This document shows, one piece after another, positions 24,695 to 32,376 of a DNA stretch of 64,000 nucleotides (within the stretch, counting starts at the first letter, position 1; each line of letters starts with the position of its first letter). Position numbers and translations under genes: made by a program. The stretch is from the NCBI GenBank assembly GCA_027487865.1, contig JAIYCT010000007.1:186001-250000 (forward strand), written 5' to 3'. The notes under the pieces were generated by a model. The model ran no database searches. It was not told the origin of the DNA and saw only the letters and a program-made list of their open reading frames with translations. The stretch is from Microbacteriaceae bacterium (GTDB lineage: Bacteria; Actinomycetota; Actinomycetes; Actinomycetales; Microbacteriaceae).

Positions 24695-27050
24695 GACCAA
24701 TCCAGAAGAACGCATTGTTGACATTGATGTCGCCAAAGAAATGCGCGAGAGCTTCCTGGAGTACTCGTACTCGGTCATCTATTCCAGAGCACTTCCGGAT
24801 GCTAGAGACGGGCTAAAACCGGTTCAGCGCCGCATTGTTTACCAAATGGGCGAGATGGGCCTTAGACCTGATAAAGGTCACGTCAAATCGGCTCGCGTGA
24901 CCGGTGAGGTCATGGGAAAGCTCCACCCGCACGGCGATGGTGCTATTTATGACGCACTAGTTCGTATGGCTCAGCCATTTAGCCTTCGAATTCCCCTAAT
25001 CGACGGTCACGGTAACTTCGGATCCCTCGATGATGGACCTGCGGCAGCGAGATACACCGAGGCTCGCCTGGCCCCTGCAGCACTACTGCTAAATGAATCC
25101 CTTGACGAAGACGTGGTCGACTTCCAACCAAACTATGACGCTCAGCTCAGCGAACCCGAAGTACTGCCGGCAGCTTTCCCAAACCTATTGGTCAACGGAG
25201 CGGCCGGTATTGCAGTTGGTATGGCAACCAACATGGCGCCGCATAATCTCCGGGAGGTGATTAGCGCGCTAACTCTGCTAATCGATAACCCCGATGCCGA
25301 TCTCTCGGAAGTGATGCAGGTATTGCCGGGTCCAGACTTCCCCACCGGCGGGGTTGCCTTGATCGCTGAAGGATTACTTGAGGCATACAGCCAAGGTAAG
25401 GGAACCATCAAGACCCGCGCCAAGGTAGCGGTTGAAACTGTAGGGCCGCGTCGCACCGGGCTCGTGGTAACTGAGCTCCCCTACCTTGTAGGACCCGAGC
25501 GCGTGGTTGACAAGATTCGCGATGCCGTGAACTCTAAGAAGCTCGAAGGTATCCACAATGTTGTCGACCTCACAGATCGTGAGAATGGCCTGAGATTGGT
25601 CATTGAGCTCAAGACCGGATTTGATCCCGACTCCGTTTTAGAAGCGCTCTATAGGTTTACCCCTCTTGAGGAGACCTTCGGTATCAACAACATTGCACTG
25701 GTGGCGGGCCGCCCGCAGCAGCTCGGTGTGATTGCACTACTTCAGGTTTACCTTTCGCACCGAATGGATGTTGTCCGCCGCAGATCAACGAATCGCCTGG
25801 ACCGCAGAAATGCCAGACTGCACCTTTTGGAAGGCCTTCAGATCGCGGTTCTCAATATCGATGAGATCATCGAGGTGATTCGCACCAGCGATACAGCTGA
25901 CGGTGCCCGCACGCGCCTTATTCAGATTTTTGACCTCAGCGAACTGCAGGCCGAGCACATTCTTGAGCTCAGACTTCGCCGACTAACCAGATTCAGCGTT
26001 ATTGAACTCGAGACAGAGGCCGACCAGCTGCGCAAGGAGATTGAAGCGTTGCAGGCCTTGCTTAGCTCTGAACAGCGCATCAAGCAGCAGATTCGCGCAG
26101 AGCTTGAAGAAGTATCGGATAAGTATGGCGATGCTCGGCGCACCCAGCTGATCGACGCCTCAGGAATGGTGGTTGTCAAAAGAGCTCCGGTTGCAACAGA
26201 GCTCGAGGACGAACCAACCTTCGTCTGCGTGACCCCGAGCGGGAAGCTGTTTAGAACCACCACTCCCCCCGTTGACACCAATGATGCAAGATTGCGAGTT
26301 ATCTCGACCAGTACTCGCTCTGACATTGGACTTGTCACCAGCGATGGTGTTGCACACGCCGTGCACGTCTCCGACCTACCTGTTACAACGGCAGGTCTGA
26401 CTCCGCAGCTACCGACGCCGGAGTCAATCATCGGAGTATCGAACACACGAGTCGTTGGAGTCATTAGCTGGCGCGAAGCAGCAACCTATGCCCTTGGCAC
26501 CTCACAGGGAACTGTAAAACGATTTAGTGGACCGCTTCCTGAAAAACAGGAGGCTTCCCTGATAGCTCTGAAGGAGATGGACGAGGTGATTGGCGTTGCA
26601 GTTTCTGGCGATGACTCTGAGCTTGTCTTCATCACCAACGAAGCCAACCTCCTTGCCTTCCCGGCATCCAGCGTGAGACCTCAAGGCCTTCCCGCAGGAG
26701 GTATGGCTGGAATGAACATTCCAAGCGGCAGAGCGATCTATTTCGGGGTAGCAAGCCAGGACTCGGTAGTTGTCTCAGTTTCAAATTCCTCTATGGCACT
26801 GGGTGGAACAGACGCGGGTTCGGTCAAGCTCACGCAACTTACTGCCTACCCGCGCAAGGGCAGAGGTGCGATGGGAGTTCGCTGCCACAAGTTCCTGAAG
26901 GGTGAAGACCAGCTCTACTTTGCATCCCTTGCAAAAGCCCAACCGACGCTTCTAGATCTAGACGAAAAGCCGATTGTAGGTCCGGTCGTTGATCAGAGAA
27001 GAGATGGCTCGGGAACTGCTGCTAGCGATTATGTAGATAGCGCTTTCTAG
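24693..27050 (+). CDS. parC: DNA topoisomerase IV subunit A
   Basis: ParC is the breakage-reunion subunit of topoisomerase IV, which decatenates chromosomes. The 785-residue protein has [36 protein letters not shown] and the catalytic tyrosine in [13 protein letters not shown] coiled tower region follows, then a beta-propeller-like C-terminal part. I call ParC rather than GyrA because the partner at 27047-29104 is ParE-like and the propeller lacks a clear GyrA box (QRRGGKG). The start ATG has AGGGA just upstream. The frame is open 150 bases earlier, but that stretch shows no family similarity. Confidence 0.92.
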
Positions 27051-29104
27051 GCGTCAATCTTCTCTCGGTCAAAGCTATCCGCGGAGTCAACAATGAAATC
27101 TCTTCGCGGTGCGACATCGTTGCCCATTAGCAGTTCGAAAATCTCATCAGCGGCCTGAGCGTCTTTTGCTGTGATGCGTCTAAGCATTCGGTTATTAGGA
27201 CTCATGGTCGTGTCTGCTAGCTGGTCGGCATCCATCTCACCAAGTCCCTTATAGCGCTGAATTGGATTCTGGTAGGTCTTTCCAGACTTCTCAAGTTTCG
27301 CCAACAGGTCATGCAGTTCTTGCTGGCTATAGGTGTAAATCGGCTCTTTTGAACGTCCGGATTGAACCATTACTCGGTGCAGCGGTGGAACAGCTGCATA
27401 CACCCTGCCAGCCTCAACCAAAGGCCTCATGTAGCGGAAGAACAGGGTGAGTAGCAGAGTGCGAATGTGAGCGCCATCGACATCAGCATCGCTCATCAAA
27501 ATGATCTTTTCGTAGCGCACAGACTCTAAGTCGAAGGTCCTGCCCGACCCACCGCCAATAACTTGGATGATCGAGGCACACTCGGTGTTTGAAAGCATGT
27601 CCGCGATCGAGGCCTTTTGAACATTCAGAATCTTGCCTCGGATTGGCAGTAGTGCCTGGAACTTTGAGTCTCTGGCTAGCTTCGCAGTTCCAAGGGCGCT
27701 GTCACCCTCGACGATAAAGAGTTCCGATCCTGCGGTGGCATCAGCTCGACAGTCCACCAACTTTGTCGGTAGAGAAGAGGATTCAAGGGCATTCTTACGG
27801 CGCTGGGTGTCCTTTAGGGTTCTTGCGCTGATTCGCGCTTTGGCCTCGTTGACCACCTTTTCTAGCAGGTTGTCAACCTCCTGCTTGGTGCCGCGGACTG
27901 TTCCGGAAAGATAGTTGTCGAGCCAGGCTCCAAGACCGTTGGCGACAATAGCCTTGACCGCCGGTGTTCCAAGGGTCTCCTTGGTTTGACCTTCAAACTG
28001 AGGCTCGGGAAGGCTTACGGTAACAACCGCCGTGAGACCCGCGTAAAGATCTTCGCGCTCGATTTTGAGTCCAGTCGCCTTTAGCTTTCTGGAATTGGTA
28101 TCAATCACTGCGCGGAAGGATTTCAGAAGGGCCTGTTCGAAACCAACCTGGTGGCTTCCTCCCTTAGGGGTGGAAATGATATTTACAAAGCTACGAAGTT
28201 CGGTGTCAAAGCCATTACCCCAGCGAAGCGCAATATCCACCGAGCATTCGCGCTCGACCTCTTTTGACACCATCGCTCCGTTGGCATCATCTAGCACCGG
28301 AACGGTTTCCACAAACGAAGACTTGAACTGGATTCGCTTAGTAGGCATAACAGCGATGTCCTTGGCTAAATGCTCTGCGTACTCCGCTATACCACCCTCG
28401 AACTTATAGTCCAGCTTGGAATTGGTGGAGTGCTCATGTGCCTGCAACCTAAGACCAGGCACCAAAAATGCCGTCTGACGAAGCCGATTTGCCAAATCCT
28501 CTAACGAGAAAGCTGCCGATGCCTCAAAGATTTGTCGATCTGGCCAGTATCTAACCCTTGTGCCAGTTACACCCTTGGCGACTTTTCCGAATGTTCTGAG
28601 TTCGCTGCCGTCAATGAAAGGCTCAAAACTTGCGTCCGGACCTTCTCCAAAAAACTTTCCAGGCTCACCGCGCTTGAAAGACATGGCATAGGTCTGGCCA
28701 TTTCTATCGACTTCGACATCTAAGCGTGAGGAAAGCGCGTTCACAACCGAGGCACCAACACCGTGGAGTCCACCGGAAGCCGCGTATGAACCACCGCCAA
28801 ACTTTCCGCCGGCATGCAGCTTGGTGTATACAACCTCGACACCGCTGAGTCCAGTCCTGGGCTCGATGTCTACCGGAACACCGCGACCTTGATCGCGAAC
28901 CTCAATGGAGCCGTCTTCAAAAATCTCAACGTCGATCAGGTTTCCGTGTCCAGCAAGAGCTTCGTCCACTGAGTTGTCGATGATTTCCCACAGGCAGTGC
29001 ATGAGACCACGGGCATCCGTAGAACCGATATACATGCCAGGACGTTTGCGAACCGCCTCCAAGCCCTCAAGGACCGAGAGGTGTCTAGCTGAATAGGTTT
29101 CCAC
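27047..29104 (-). CDS. parE: DNA topoisomerase IV subunit B
   Basis: ParE is the ATPase subunit of topoisomerase IV. The 685-residue protein opens [26 protein letters not shown]. It has the GHKL ATP site [21 protein letters not shown] and [14 protein letters not shown], and the Toprim motifs [13 protein letters not shown] and [17 protein letters not shown]. The C-terminal [17 protein letters not shown] is standard. It converges on parC and overlaps it by four bases, so the two subunits come from separate promoters. Relatives often keep the genes close but not as one operon. Confidence 0.94.
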
Positions 29105-29215
29105 TTTGGCAATCTAACCGCAGCCACCATGAATTAACACTTGCCACTTCGCAGTTAGCGAAACTGGGTGCAAGTGGGACTAATTTGTGGTGGGTAGGTG
29201 GTTGAATGTACTCAA

Positions 29216-29413
29216 ATGGAAGATCTAAAAGAAACCACCAAGTTAGTAGCCGCAGACCGTTGTGATGTTTGTGGAGCCCAGGCATACATTCGAGTTGGCC
29301 TAGAGTCGGGTGACTTGCTCTTCTGCGCACACCACGGCAACGCCAACAAATCCAAGCTGGAACCAATCACCATCTCCTGGCACGACCAGTCAGAAGACCT
29401 TTCTAAAAGGTAG
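29216..29413 (+). CDS. DUF7455 family small protein
   Basis: The 65-residue product contains AADRCDVCGAQAYIRV and GDLLFCAHHG, matching a small actinobacterial family found between parE and the major sigma-factor gene. The CxxC and CxHH pattern could bind zinc. Its role is unknown. The ATG has no obvious Shine-Dalgarno; a GTG at 29198 would add six residues. The last 11 bases overlap the gatD-like gene on the other strand. Confidence 0.82.
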   Translation: MEDLKETTKLVAADRCDVCGAQAYIRVGLESGDLLFCAHHGNANKSKLEPITISWHDQSEDLSKR

Positions 29414-29963
29414 TTGCCTCGCGCACATTGTTAGCTAGGTCGACACTACGTTCAAAGTAAGCACCCTGTAGTTCCACTCCCAAAGAACTGGCAATCATCT
29501 TTAGCAGCATCGGATTCTTTGCGAAAAGCGGACCAAAAAGTGTTGTCCCGATAAAAGACCCCGAGATTTGCAGGCGCGGTTCAACAACTGTTGAGTTGTG
29601 GTAACCAAATACGTCATGGTCCAGCACTCGCAGAGACACAAACTTTGACTCCCGCTCGCCCTGTTTGAGCTCGATCCCCAGAAGCGGTGCAAAGTACTCG
29701 TAGCTTCTGCCAACCAATAGCGTTGGCTTTCCAGCCATCAAACGCATCTTTAGCACTGGCAGAAGATCAGAGAGTTCTGCCTCAAAGTGAGTTAGAACTG
29801 CAATCGAACAGTCACCAACCAAAAGGAAATCGCTCCCCTGATAATCGTGACTGATTTCAAATTCAACATTCAGGGCTGAAAACTGTGCAGCTATGACCGC
29901 GAGGTTTCCCTGATCTCCGTTGTTGTCGAAGAACTCCGGCTTGAAAGAAGAAAGTTTGATCAT
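29403..29963 (-). CDS. GatD-like protein, glutamine amidotransferase fold with catalytic residues lost
   Basis: Canonical GatD supplies ammonia to MurT for amidating D-Glu in lipid II. Here the fold signatures remain: NNGDQGN (residues 14-20), FGYHNSTVVEP (119-129, cf. GFENHgG) and GTTLFGPLFAKNP (139-151, cf. GTYLHGPLL.KNP). The nucleophile elbow reads TLLVGRSYEYF, with Gly85 where the catalytic Cys sits, and Phe143 replaces the catalytic His. The only cysteine, Cys52, is elsewhere. At 186 residues it is shorter than the usual 240 or so. The frame is intact and overlaps murT by four bases, so it looks like a maintained non-glutaminase partner rather than a decaying gene. Confidence 0.82.
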   Translation of the reverse strand: MIKLSSFKPEFFDNNGDQGNLAVIAAQFSALNVEFEISHDYQGSDFLLVGDCSIAVLTHFEAELSDLLPVLKMRLMAGKPTLLVGRSYEYFAPLLGIELKQGERESKFVSLRVLDHDVFGYHNSTVVEPRLQISGSFIGTTLFGPLFAKNPMLLKMIASSLGVELQGAYFERSVDLANNVREATTF

Positions 29964-31174
29964 TTAGCCAGCCCCAAATATCTCCTGGTGCGTCTCATCG
30001 CATCGGCCGAGAAAACGATTGTCGGTTCCGATCCGGTCAACTTCGCAAAGTGCTCGTTAGCCAGATCAATCTTTGGCTCAACCAACTTCACCTCAACACC
30101 TGCGTAGTGCAACCGCAGCGCAAGTTCATGGGCGTTATAACCAGATACGACATCGACACCATCTAGCTTTGAGAAGTCAACAGTCCAAAGCCAACTTGGG
30201 TCGTGAATGTCCCTACCGGCCATAATCATCAGAGGGTGAGGTGTGGTCTGCAATTTATCTAGGTTCAACTGGAAGCTCGTTGGGTTTTGCACCAGCATCA
30301 AACGCACAAGTCGATCTCTTACCAACGCCATCTCGTCGCGCGCAAACACCGGAGGCAGCGCCTCTATTGTGTGGGCAACAAGCTCAGTATCTATTTCAAT
30401 CAGAGCATCAACGGCCAGCACTGCGGAGGCGACGTTCATCGCCTGCGAGAAATTCTCGTAATCGCCAGCAATCTCTAGGTCAGTTCCTTTGAGCATGATG
30501 AGCAATCTTTCGGCCGTCGCATGCTTTATCAGAGCCGAAGCAGAAAGCTCTGGCTTTTCTCCAAAGTTGATTGCGTAGGAAGGGCCCTCATCGATGAGTT
30601 CGGCAACCAGTCCAAAGCCGAATGTTTCTGGATGCCCGCTTGCGATTTGTGCAACATTGCGATCGTCACGATTTGCAATCACTGTGGCTGAGTTGTTGAT
30701 GATCTCGGCAAGTTTTTCCTGGACGTAGATCGGGTCGACAAAACGGTCTAACTGATCAGAAAGCACGTTGGTAATGACGCTTAGTCGCGGCTTTAGTTCC
30801 TTCGCCAGGGCAGCCCCGTGACCCTCGTCCCACTCGAGCACAACAATGTCAGCGGCAATACGTCCTCGAAGATCACCGAACTGAAGAACTGATGCGTAGT
30901 AGCCCTGTTTGATGTTCGCAGTTGATGGATTGGTGAAAACCCGAACCCCATGTGCTTCAAAAAGCGCAACGATGATCTTGGTCGTGCTCGATTTTCCGGC
31001 GGTGCCGCTTACGACCACCAGCCCCTGCGGAACGGATTGAATGGCACGTTCCAACAGTTTTGGTTGAATTGCCGCGGCTATGGTTCCTGGAAGAGACGAT
31101 CCCCCACCGCGTCTAACTAGACGCAGTAGAAAACGAGCAGTTTTCCCAAGCGCCATCGCTAGGAAAGTGCGCAT
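29960..31174 (-). CDS. murT: MurT-like Mur ligase (DUF1727) without zinc ribbon
   Basis: MurT activates the alpha-carboxyl of D-Glu in lipid II as an acyl phosphate. This 404-residue protein has the Mur-ligase P-loop VSGTAGKSSTTK (residues 55-66; GTNGKTTT is more usual), NPSTANIKQG, the metal/ATP segment VVLEWDEGHG and TNVLSDQLDR. The C-terminal DUF1727 domain has LVQNPTSFQ and DPSWLWTVDF (325-334), matching the DxSW aspartate that completes the GatD triad in Staphylococcus. There is no cysteine in the whole protein, so the Cys4 zinc ribbon expected around residues 190-235 is absent. It overlaps sigA by one base and gatD by four. Confidence 0.85.
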   Translation of the reverse strand: MRTFLAMALGKTARFLLRLVRRGGGSSLPGTIAAAIQPKLLERAIQSVPQGLVVVSGTAGKSSTTKIIVALFEAHGVRVFTNPSTANIKQGYYASVLQFGDLRGRIAADIVVLEWDEGHGAALAKELKPRLSVITNVLSDQLDRFVDPIYVQEKLAEIINNSATVIANRDDRNVAQIASGHPETFGFGLVAELIDEGPSYAINFGEKPELSASALIKHATAERLLIMLKGTDLEIAGDYENFSQAMNVASAVLAVDALIEIDTELVAHTIEALPPVFARDEMALVRDRLVRLMLVQNPTSFQLNLDKLQTTPHPLMIMAGRDIHDPSWLWTVDFSKLDGVDVVSGYNAHELALRLHYAGVEVKLVEPKIDLANEHFAKLTGSEPTIVFSADAMRRTRRYLGLAK

Positions 31175-32376
31175 TAGCTATCTAGATAGTCGCGCAGTAG
31201 TTGAGAACGGGAAGGGTGACGCAACTTTGACATGGTCTTTGATTCGATCTGGCGAATGCGCTCGCGAGTAACACCAAACTTCTCACCGATCTGGTCCAGG
31301 GTCATCTGAACACCGTCACCGAGACCGAATCTTGAGCGAATAACACCGGCTTCACGAGGGTGCAGGGAGTCGAGAACTCGTTCGAGCTCCTGCTGAAGCA
31401 TTGTGAATCCAACTGCGTCCGCAGGAACAACCGCCTCGGTGTCCTCAATAAGGTCACCAAACTCACTGTCTCCATCTTCACCCAGCGGAGTGGAGAGGGA
31501 AATTGGCTCACGGCCATACTTCTGAACTTCGACAACCTTTTCCGGGGTCATATCTAGCTCGGCTGCAAGCTCTTCCGGGGTCGGTTCGCGGCCTAGATCC
31601 TGAAGCAGCTGGCGCTGAACGCGGGCAAGCTTGTTGATGACCTCAACCATGTGAACCGGGATACGAATGGTTCGAGCCTGGTCGGCCATTGCTCTGGTGA
31701 TCGCCTGACGAATCCACCAGGTTGCGTAGGTCGAGAACTTATAGCCCTTGGTGTAGTCGAACTTCTCAACCGCACGAATTAGGCCAAGGTTTCCCTCTTG
31801 AATCAAATCTAGGAACTGCATGCCGCGACCGGTGTAGCGCTTTGCAAGCGAGACCACAAGGCGAAGGTTTGCCTCAAGCAGGTGGCTCTTGGCGCGCGCA
31901 CCATCCTTTACCACCCAGCTCAGGTCGCGACGTTCTGCCGGAGCTAGGGACTTTGCAGTCGCTAGCTTCTCCTCGGCAAACAGGCCAGCCTCAATGCGCT
32001 TGGCAAGTTCGACCTCAAGCTCAGCGTTAAGAAGTGCTACCTTACCGATCTGCTTGAGGTAGTCCTTAACGGGGTCAGCGGTAGCACCTGAAATGGTTAG
32101 GTTTTGAACTGGGATGTCATCATCGTCATCGCTCAGAACTAATACGTCTGCAGGCAAGGCATTTATGTCAACGGCAGTCTCGGACTCATCGTCCTTGTGC
32201 TCTTCTACAACAACTTCCGCAACCTCGATAACCTCTATGACCTCGGCAACGATTTCATCTACAGTCTCGATTTCAATCTCGTCCTCGATGTCCTCTTCGT
32301 CATCTTCGACAACGGCAGCTTTAGCCTTGCTGGCTTTGCCAGCTGGCTTAGTTGCTTTGGCCTTGGCCTTGGACAC
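31174..32376 (-). CDS. sigA: Principal RNA polymerase sigma factor
   Basis: This sigma-70 protein directs housekeeping transcription. The 400-residue product has a Lys/Ala-rich start, then a very acidic stretch (about residues 23-70) typical of actinobacterial SigA/HrdB region 1.1. Region 1.2 is [16 protein letters not shown]. Region 2 contains [34 protein letters not shown] read as adjoining motifs, and [17 protein letters not shown]. Region 4 ends [20 protein letters not shown]. It starts at GTG. The murT-gatD pair overlaps its stop, so those genes may be transcribed from the sigA promoter. Confidence 0.96.

Follow-up and report, generated by a model that had tools for sequence, protein, structure and literature searches.

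The window analysed here is a stretch of 64,000 nucleotides from a Microbacteriaceae bacterium (NCBI GenBank assembly GCA_027487865.1, contig JAIYCT010000007.1, positions 186,001 to 250,000 of the forward strand); positions are counted from its first letter, and the genes and codons described in it lie on the reverse strand. It contains a two-gene operon encoding a MurT-like Mur ligase of 404 residues (29960-31174) and a GatD remnant of 186 residues that is predicted to be catalytically dead (29403-29963), the two open reading frames (ORFs) sharing a 4-base overlap. A MurT beside a dead GatD had been described in the first-pass annotation of this DNA; the arrangement was confirmed, and is wider than first noted. 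The ligase is identified from its ORF, its Pfam matches, its solved relatives and its place in a clade of MurTs with dead partners, referred to below as the D form. It passed the Pfam cut-offs for both MurT_C (39.5 bits, cut-off 25) and Mur_ligase_M (37.4 bits, cut-off 24), and the closest solved structure is that of Streptococcus pneumoniae MurT (6fqb, E 3.2e-28). Its score of 112.7 bits against NCBIfam NF045635, the isoglutaminyl synthase equivalog, is far below the cut-off of 800. The GatD gave no Pfam or NCBIfam match at E<=1, and a class-I glutaminase fold is assigned to it from profile comparison alone, a profile of 14 window-type GatDs matching a profile of 11 live GatDs with 100% probability (E 1.8e-53).

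The pair resembles the MurT/GatD lipid II isoglutaminyl synthase of Staphylococcus aureus (6gs2/7q8e) and S. pneumoniae (6fqb) in its two-gene operon, in the combination of middle and C-terminal Mur domains without the N-terminal domain of MurC-MurF, in its intact ATP and acceptor-carboxylate residues, and in a GatD-type partner that has kept the stretch after the catalytic His position. In the window MurT the Mur ligase middle domain begins at residue 55, with no Pfam domain ahead of it. The window pair differs from the isoglutaminyl synthase in the loss of the glutaminase Cys and, in the window's genus, of the His, in a shorter GatD, in the loss of an Arg at the ammonia gate and in a DNAAD loop that is 3 residues shorter.

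Catalytic residues, selection and phylogeny

The residue comparison took in 84 live-type rows, representing 82 distinct MurTs, 125 D rows, of which 107 are distinct, and 9 rows of a second dead-GatD lineage, the W form. Some genes were fetched twice and fill two rows, and the odd row L100 was set aside. GatD profile score decided the class, and since we built the profiles from seed groups of our own, class and residue are partly dependent. Residue roles follow PMC6113224 and PMC6085368, which, like the other papers given by PubMed Central (PMC) number, are cited here from excerpts.

The site that activates the acceptor has been preserved. The Walker A lysine of the window MurT, K61 (SGTAGKSSTT; 30992-30994), is intact and occupies an invariant column; none of the 84 live-type, 125 D and 9 W rows deviates there, nor at E108, D136, R140 or the acceptor-carboxylate Asn (S. 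pneumoniae N85), and the features of MurT membership (acceptor Asn, Mg/ATP Glu, hinge Arg) are present in the window protein. In relatives N85 touches the acceptor carboxylate, and the N85A variant is inactive (PMC6085368). The glutaminase has been lost. At GatD codon 85 (29709-29711) Gly replaces the nucleophilic Cys (S. aureus C94), a residue present in 84/84 live-type rows, 0/125 D rows and 0/9 W rows; the D rows, which span the family, have Gly, Ala or Ser there. At codon 143 (29535-29537) Phe replaces the catalytic His (S. aureus H189), which is retained in 77/125 D rows, and the GPLFAKNP stretch that follows is still in place.

Two further changes are found in the ligase. S139 (30758-30760) replaces the conserved Arg that flanks the ammonia gate in S. 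pneumoniae MurT (R135; PMC6085368), present in 84/84 live-type, 0/125 D and 8/9 W rows. Within residues 319-328 (30191-30220) the DNAAD loop is shortened: the stretch holding DNAAD and D349 (S. aureus numbering) is 11 residues long in 84/84 live-type rows, 8 in 125/125 D rows and 13-15 in W rows. D349 itself, D325 in the window, is kept in 124/125 D rows and 0/9 W rows. The first-pass annotation had also pointed to the missing zinc ribbon of this MurT. The CxxC is truly missing, but a ribbon is present in a subset of MurTs (PMC6113224, PMC6085368), and the CxxC is also missing in 8 live-type MurTs (6 from other families, 2 from Microbacteriaceae). Loss of the ribbon was rejected as a hallmark of the D form.

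The pair is under purifying selection and is not decaying. Fifteen within-genus comparisons were made for each gene, and in most of them the synonymous sites are saturated; the three closest gave ratios of nonsynonymous to synonymous substitution rates (dN/dS) of 0.034-0.077 for MurT and 0.057-0.121 for GatD. The GatD of the window's genus is shortened by ~50 residues, with a median matched length of 185 as against 237 for the live type. A quickly built tree of 125 MurT rows places the D form in one clade of 56 rows (support 100 in the Shimodaira-Hasegawa-like approximate likelihood ratio test, SH-aLRT), and the W form in a separate group of 9 (support 90), with which the odd row L100 falls.

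Distribution of the pair and exchange with a CofE-like protein

The family was sampled by 398 Microbacteriaceae genomes that are at least 90% complete. By score bands chosen after the scores were seen, and with values copied by hand, a MurT-kind gene was strong (E<=1e-127) in 261 genomes, mid-scoring in 32, weak in 25 and absent from 80. Reading of the genes typed 16 of the 32 mid-score genomes as 10 live and 6 D, of which one is a fragment lacking GatD. From the 25 weak-score genomes, 10 were typed likewise: 7 W, 2 live and 1 odd. A sample of 297 genomes was taken from the order, with a MurT threshold of E<=1e-25 outside the family. There, 92 genomes from outside the family bear a MurT, none at D-level scores (best 1.1e-120), and the GatD, read in 63 of the 92, has kept both Cys and His in 63/63. 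Within the order sample D-level MurT is confined to the Microbacteriaceae, although not every member of the family has one. Group-B peptidoglycan is typical of Microbacteriaceae, a family found in soil and water, and the other families of the order sample are presumed by us to have group-A walls; on that presumption, the correlation with peptidoglycan type that the first-pass annotation proposed is borne out at the level of families.

In Rhodoluna lacicola MWH-Ta8, an organism with a closed genome of 1,430,433 bp, the peptidoglycan is of type B2beta (B10) with 2,4-diaminobutyric acid (Dab), and gave the fragments D-Ala-D-Dab and Gly-D-Glu (PMC4156110); genome editing has been reported for the same species (PMC11577799). 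Its genome (G031, L016) has one MurT_C match, which is D-type, with a GatD that has lost Cys and kept His. The genome of the window (1.47 Mb, 99.1% complete) likewise has a single MurT_C match, and a second, canonical MurT/GatD pair, the search for which the annotation had recommended, was not found in it by the MurT_C search. The D pair is retained in streamlined 1.4 Mb genomes. Pontimonas salivibrio (putatively G072), with a genome of 1,760,810 bp according to its published abstract, is also D-type by score.

In the window the D pair lies between sigA, encoding the main sigma factor (31174-32376), and a gene for a parE/gyrB-like topoisomerase subunit (27047-29104), which form the upstream and downstream flanks of the slot. 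Both were named from sequence without a family search, sigA by its conserved C-terminus. The remainder of the slot (29105-29402) is where some relatives have racemase-like genes; a motif scan of the window found no racemase-like or CofE-like genes (no family search was made). In named genomes of many genera the D pair follows sigA. A scan of named Microbacteriaceae contigs with a SigA pattern gave at least 118 stretches, 80 of which were taken as loci: a MurT-kind gene was found in 43 (42 D, 1 W), and none was visible in 37. Whole-genome searches of 36 of these 37 (L143 was left out) placed a D-level MurT outside the visible stretch in 2, and MurT was absent at E<=1e-18 from the remaining 34. 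In 33 of the 34 a CofE-like ORF stands immediately after sigA, as judged by motif scan and by eye; the 34th, L207, has 281 bases visible past sigA. By motif scan, the CofE-like ORF is in none of the 43 listed MurT loci. Its representative at L206 (6281-6973, reverse strand) encodes a protein of 231 residues directly after sigA, and the motif scan found it at 25 further named loci. The L206 protein scores 48.8 bits against PF01996 and 31.6 bits against TIGR01916 (cut-off 180.65), so it is no standard CofE, the coenzyme F420-0:L-glutamate ligase defined by these two families, but a relative that replaces MurT/GatD without being homologous to it.

The same exchange is seen in whole genomes. A CofE-like protein was detected in 69 of the 398 family genomes: the match is strong (E<=1e-96) in 66 of them, and in the other 3 it is weak (1e-38 to 1e-45). 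The strong form occurs in 0/318 MurT-bearing genomes and in 66/80 others (Fisher's p 6e-62, uncorrected for kinship). Both states are found within 14 genera, and the exchange between MurT and the CofE-like protein has therefore happened repeatedly. A simple rule by which the D pair accounts for all group-B walls was rejected in view of the 66 genomes with a CofE-like protein and 14 with neither. Outside the family, a related CofE-like domain was found with our own profile in 28 genomes of the order, none of them among the 92 that bear MurT. In the six proteins fetched (L398-L403; families f6, f12 and f18) the domain forms the C-terminal end of a glutamine amidotransferase of AsnB type (6/6), with the glutaminase start MCGIAG in 5/6 and MSGISG, a Cys-to-Ser change, in 1/6 (L398). 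PF01996 was matched by one of the six fusions, just below its cut-off.

Racemase-like genes adjoin both slot systems in some genomes. The motif scan picked up an ATP-grasp-like ORF in 24 of the 37 loci without a visible MurT; two of these ORFs were confirmed as PF14397 by Pfam (L206, L190), in the loci where racemase-like genes were confirmed as well; in Gulosibacter (L190) an ORF resembles, by eye, diaminobutyrate transaminase. Among the D-pair loci, alanine-racemase-like genes adjoin the pair in Leifsonia aquatica (L167), Pseudoclavibacter (L211, two genes) and L042 (G035), and L144 has a racemase together with a diaminobutyrate transaminase at equivalog level (590.6 bits, cut-off 552.2). 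These racemase and transaminase neighbours, present in some D loci, are of the kind that group-B walls require for their D- and L-diamino acids. The CofE-like protein, often accompanied by the PF14397 ATP-grasp and racemase-like genes, is a candidate for a second group-B bridge system.

A putative bridge ligase and its alternatives

From these features we infer that the glutaminase-dead MurT/GatD probably joins the first bridge amino acid to the alpha-carboxyl of D-Glu. The activating site and the partner have been kept while the glutaminase was lost and the gate changed, and a new amine, the bridge amino acid, is the explanation that best accommodates all of these. MurT would phosphorylate the D-Glu alpha-carboxyl in lipid II (or lipid I) using ATP, and GatD, with glutamine hydrolysis lost, would be the fixed structural half of the complex, as a scaffold or substrate-binding partner. 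A dead GatD could be kept because the S. aureus MurT/GatD, which can use ammonia directly at pH 8.5, still requires its GatD (PMC6085368). The place of ammonia would then be taken by an amino acid, in many members a D-diamino acid such as D-diaminobutyrate and possibly another residue in others. It would come in by way of the remodelled side that faces GatD and attack the acyl phosphate, so that the first residue of the group-B bridge is bonded to D-Glu. Such acyl-phosphate activation followed by attack of an amino acid would be a likeness to the MurC-MurF ligases, of which the pair is not a member: it has a GatD partner, lacks their N-terminal substrate domain, and is proposed to act on a different target, the D-Glu alpha-carboxyl. 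Members of the CofE family are carboxylate-amine ligases, which likewise couple an amine to a carboxylate, and exchange with a CofE-like ligase therefore fits the bridge reading.

A re-purposed MurT/GatD for group-B bridge formation had been the central suggestion of the first-pass annotation. The family-wide dead form, the shared slot and the exclusivity argue for it; the missing ribbon does not, being no diagnostic feature, and the dead form is not the sole solution of the family. That such a ligase is undescribed agrees with the literature as covered by an open-licence PubMed Central search, which returned no named enzyme for the bond between the D-Glu alpha-carboxyl and the bridge, and no ligase linking MurT/GatD to group-B walls, Microbacteriaceae or Clavibacter, or CofE to peptidoglycan.

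Several observations weigh against the bridge ligase or limit its reach. D349, part of the proposed glutaminase triad, is still there in all but one of the D rows. A fourth close comparison of GatD gave a dN/dS of 0.278, at a dS of 1.94 that is near saturation. A live pair occurs in at least 12 genomes of the family, 10 from the 16 mid-score and 2 from the 10 weak-score genomes that were typed, and 14 of the 398 have neither a MurT nor a CofE-like protein. In 12/12 stretches of ~9 kb ending at or near parE, 7 from live-pair and 5 from 'neither' genomes, there was no match to MurT, GatD, CofE-like protein or ATP-grasp; transporter-like genes lie between sigA and parE in some of them. A live pair is present in G100, putatively Aurantimicrobium minutum (genome 1,622,386 bp; PMC4929513), a species for which the literature search found no wall type; should the live-pair members have the same bridge, the D pair would be unnecessary for it. 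Strict exclusivity is broken by three weak CofE-like matches that coexist with a MurT-kind gene: in G094 and G156 the MurT is odd or weak-scoring, and in G178 it is D-level. In excerpts on Clavibacter michiganensis, D-Glu is amidated or hydroxylated in some muropeptides (PMC9603630), and a relative of this species, G076, is D-type by score; some D-Glu amidation there weighs against exclusive bridging.

The supply and identity of the diamino acid complicate the picture further. A search for ectB at E<=1e-60 gave nothing in the window genome or, despite its Dab wall, in R. lacicola, and EctB was rejected as a marker of the wall diamino acid; G076 did have a match, as did G034 and G152, which are live-pair or 'neither' genomes. 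Curtobacterium, which we take to have a D-ornithine wall, has the D pair. The 31 listed Microbacterium loci comprise 4 with the D pair, those of M. aurantiacum, M. aoyamense and two others, and 27 that have no MurT genome-wide and show a CofE-like ORF. The walls of M. aurantiacum and M. aoyamense are assumed here to contain L-lysine. M. testaceum and M. liquefaciens (synonym M. maritypicum) fall in clades given as D-ornithine (PMC10757982). A 'lysine versus ornithine' rule separating the D pair from the CofE-like protein within Microbacterium is suggestive only: with D-ornithine Microbacterium having the CofE-like protein and Curtobacterium the D pair, the enzyme does not predict the diamino acid.

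Of the competing explanations, the one that survives best, while unlikely, is an ammonia-dependent amidase that would make D-iso-glutamine from free ammonium on unbridged stems. The ammonia use of the S. aureus enzyme at pH 8.5 with GatD still needed (PMC6085368), the C. michiganensis muropeptides with D-Glu amidation or hydroxylation (PMC9603630) and the retention of D349 in 124/125 D rows are all compatible with it. A bridge is impossible on an amidated alpha-carboxyl, however, every one of the 125 D rows has the shorter loop and no gate Arg, and the mutual exclusion with a CofE-like protein, in a slot that holds racemase-like genes, points to an amino acid rather than ammonia. We give little credence to a pair that acts on another carboxyl or polymer, such as teichoic acid, a peptide or a soluble precursor, or that regulates wall synthesis, and forms no bridge bond. 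The different loop length of the W form and its loss of D349 in 9/9 rows suggest that MurT-type ligases have changed more than once, as this alternative would allow; the acceptor-carboxylate Asn in 125/125 D rows argues against another target, and an exclusive swap with one ligase-like protein is more readily expected of a shared, essential step than of an accessory one.

It is very improbable that the pair adds a later bridge residue while another enzyme makes the bond to D-Glu. An ATP-grasp match was obtained in 74 of the 398 family genomes, or 71 after three low, partial ones (G034, G092, G331) were set aside; 61 of these are among the 66 genomes with a strong CofE-like protein and 10 are MurT genomes (8 weak-score), so that two ligases may be required for some bridges. 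The 12 sampled genomes of the window's genus, however, gave no match to the ATP-grasp at E<=1e-20, and the acceptor-site residues of MurT are intact. A decaying relic kept by chance, to which the shortened GatD of the window's genus and its faster divergence than MurT might point, is scarcely credible and was rejected by the dN/dS of 0.034-0.121 in the three closest comparisons per gene, with MurT at E<=1e-127 in 261/398 family genomes and the pair kept in genomes of 1.4 Mb.

If the putative bridge ligase is placed beside the CofE-like protein, a broader scheme can be proposed, tentatively and with the balance slightly against it. Two unrelated, interchangeable ligases of one slot would start the group-B cross-links, both derived from amidating systems whose glutaminase was lost (MurT/GatD with its dead GatD, and the CofE-like protein with its AsnB-fused relatives); amide-forming enzymes would thus have been converted twice to the ligation of amino acids, enabling the 2->4 cross-linked wall. 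The two systems are concrete candidates, with locations and residue predictions, for the bond that defines group-B peptidoglycan, in organisms of known wall chemistry. If the reading holds, the D pair is a clear case of an amidotransferase that lost its glutaminase and became an amino-acid ligase with the dead subunit retained, an unusual gain of function through the loss of one subunit's activity.

The W form and further MurT/GatD copies

The W form is a second, independent lineage with a dead GatD beside a MurT (L040, L014, L089-L092, L094, L095 and L105). Some Microbacteriaceae carry it, and so does the clostridium Vescimonas fastidiosa, in which it sits on a record labelled as a plasmid. 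It differs from the D form in its separate place in the tree, in keeping the gate Arg (8/9), in having lost D349 (9/9) and in its longer loop, and a CxxC with a third Cys is common to two aligned W rows. The odd row L100 (312-3107, genome G094) is the sole locus read in which both kinds occur: a weak CofE-like gene, an odd MurT-like gene and a dead GatD share an operon there.

Live-type copies were also encountered away from the slot. In the live-pair members L294, L296, L298, L300, L301, L306 and L307, MurT/GatD lies elsewhere in the genome, with no MurT or CofE-like gene between sigA and parE. Leifsonia aquatica has a live-type MurT/GatD (L274) elsewhere in a genome that also has the D pair, and Leifsonia shinshuensis has an extra live-type MurT/GatD on a plasmid (L106, 4001-5982), adjoining an M15 metallopeptidase. 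L143, from a record titled Stenotrophomonas maltophilia P13, has a Microbacterium-like locus with sigA, the CofE-like gene and the ATP-grasp, probably through mislabelling or contamination.

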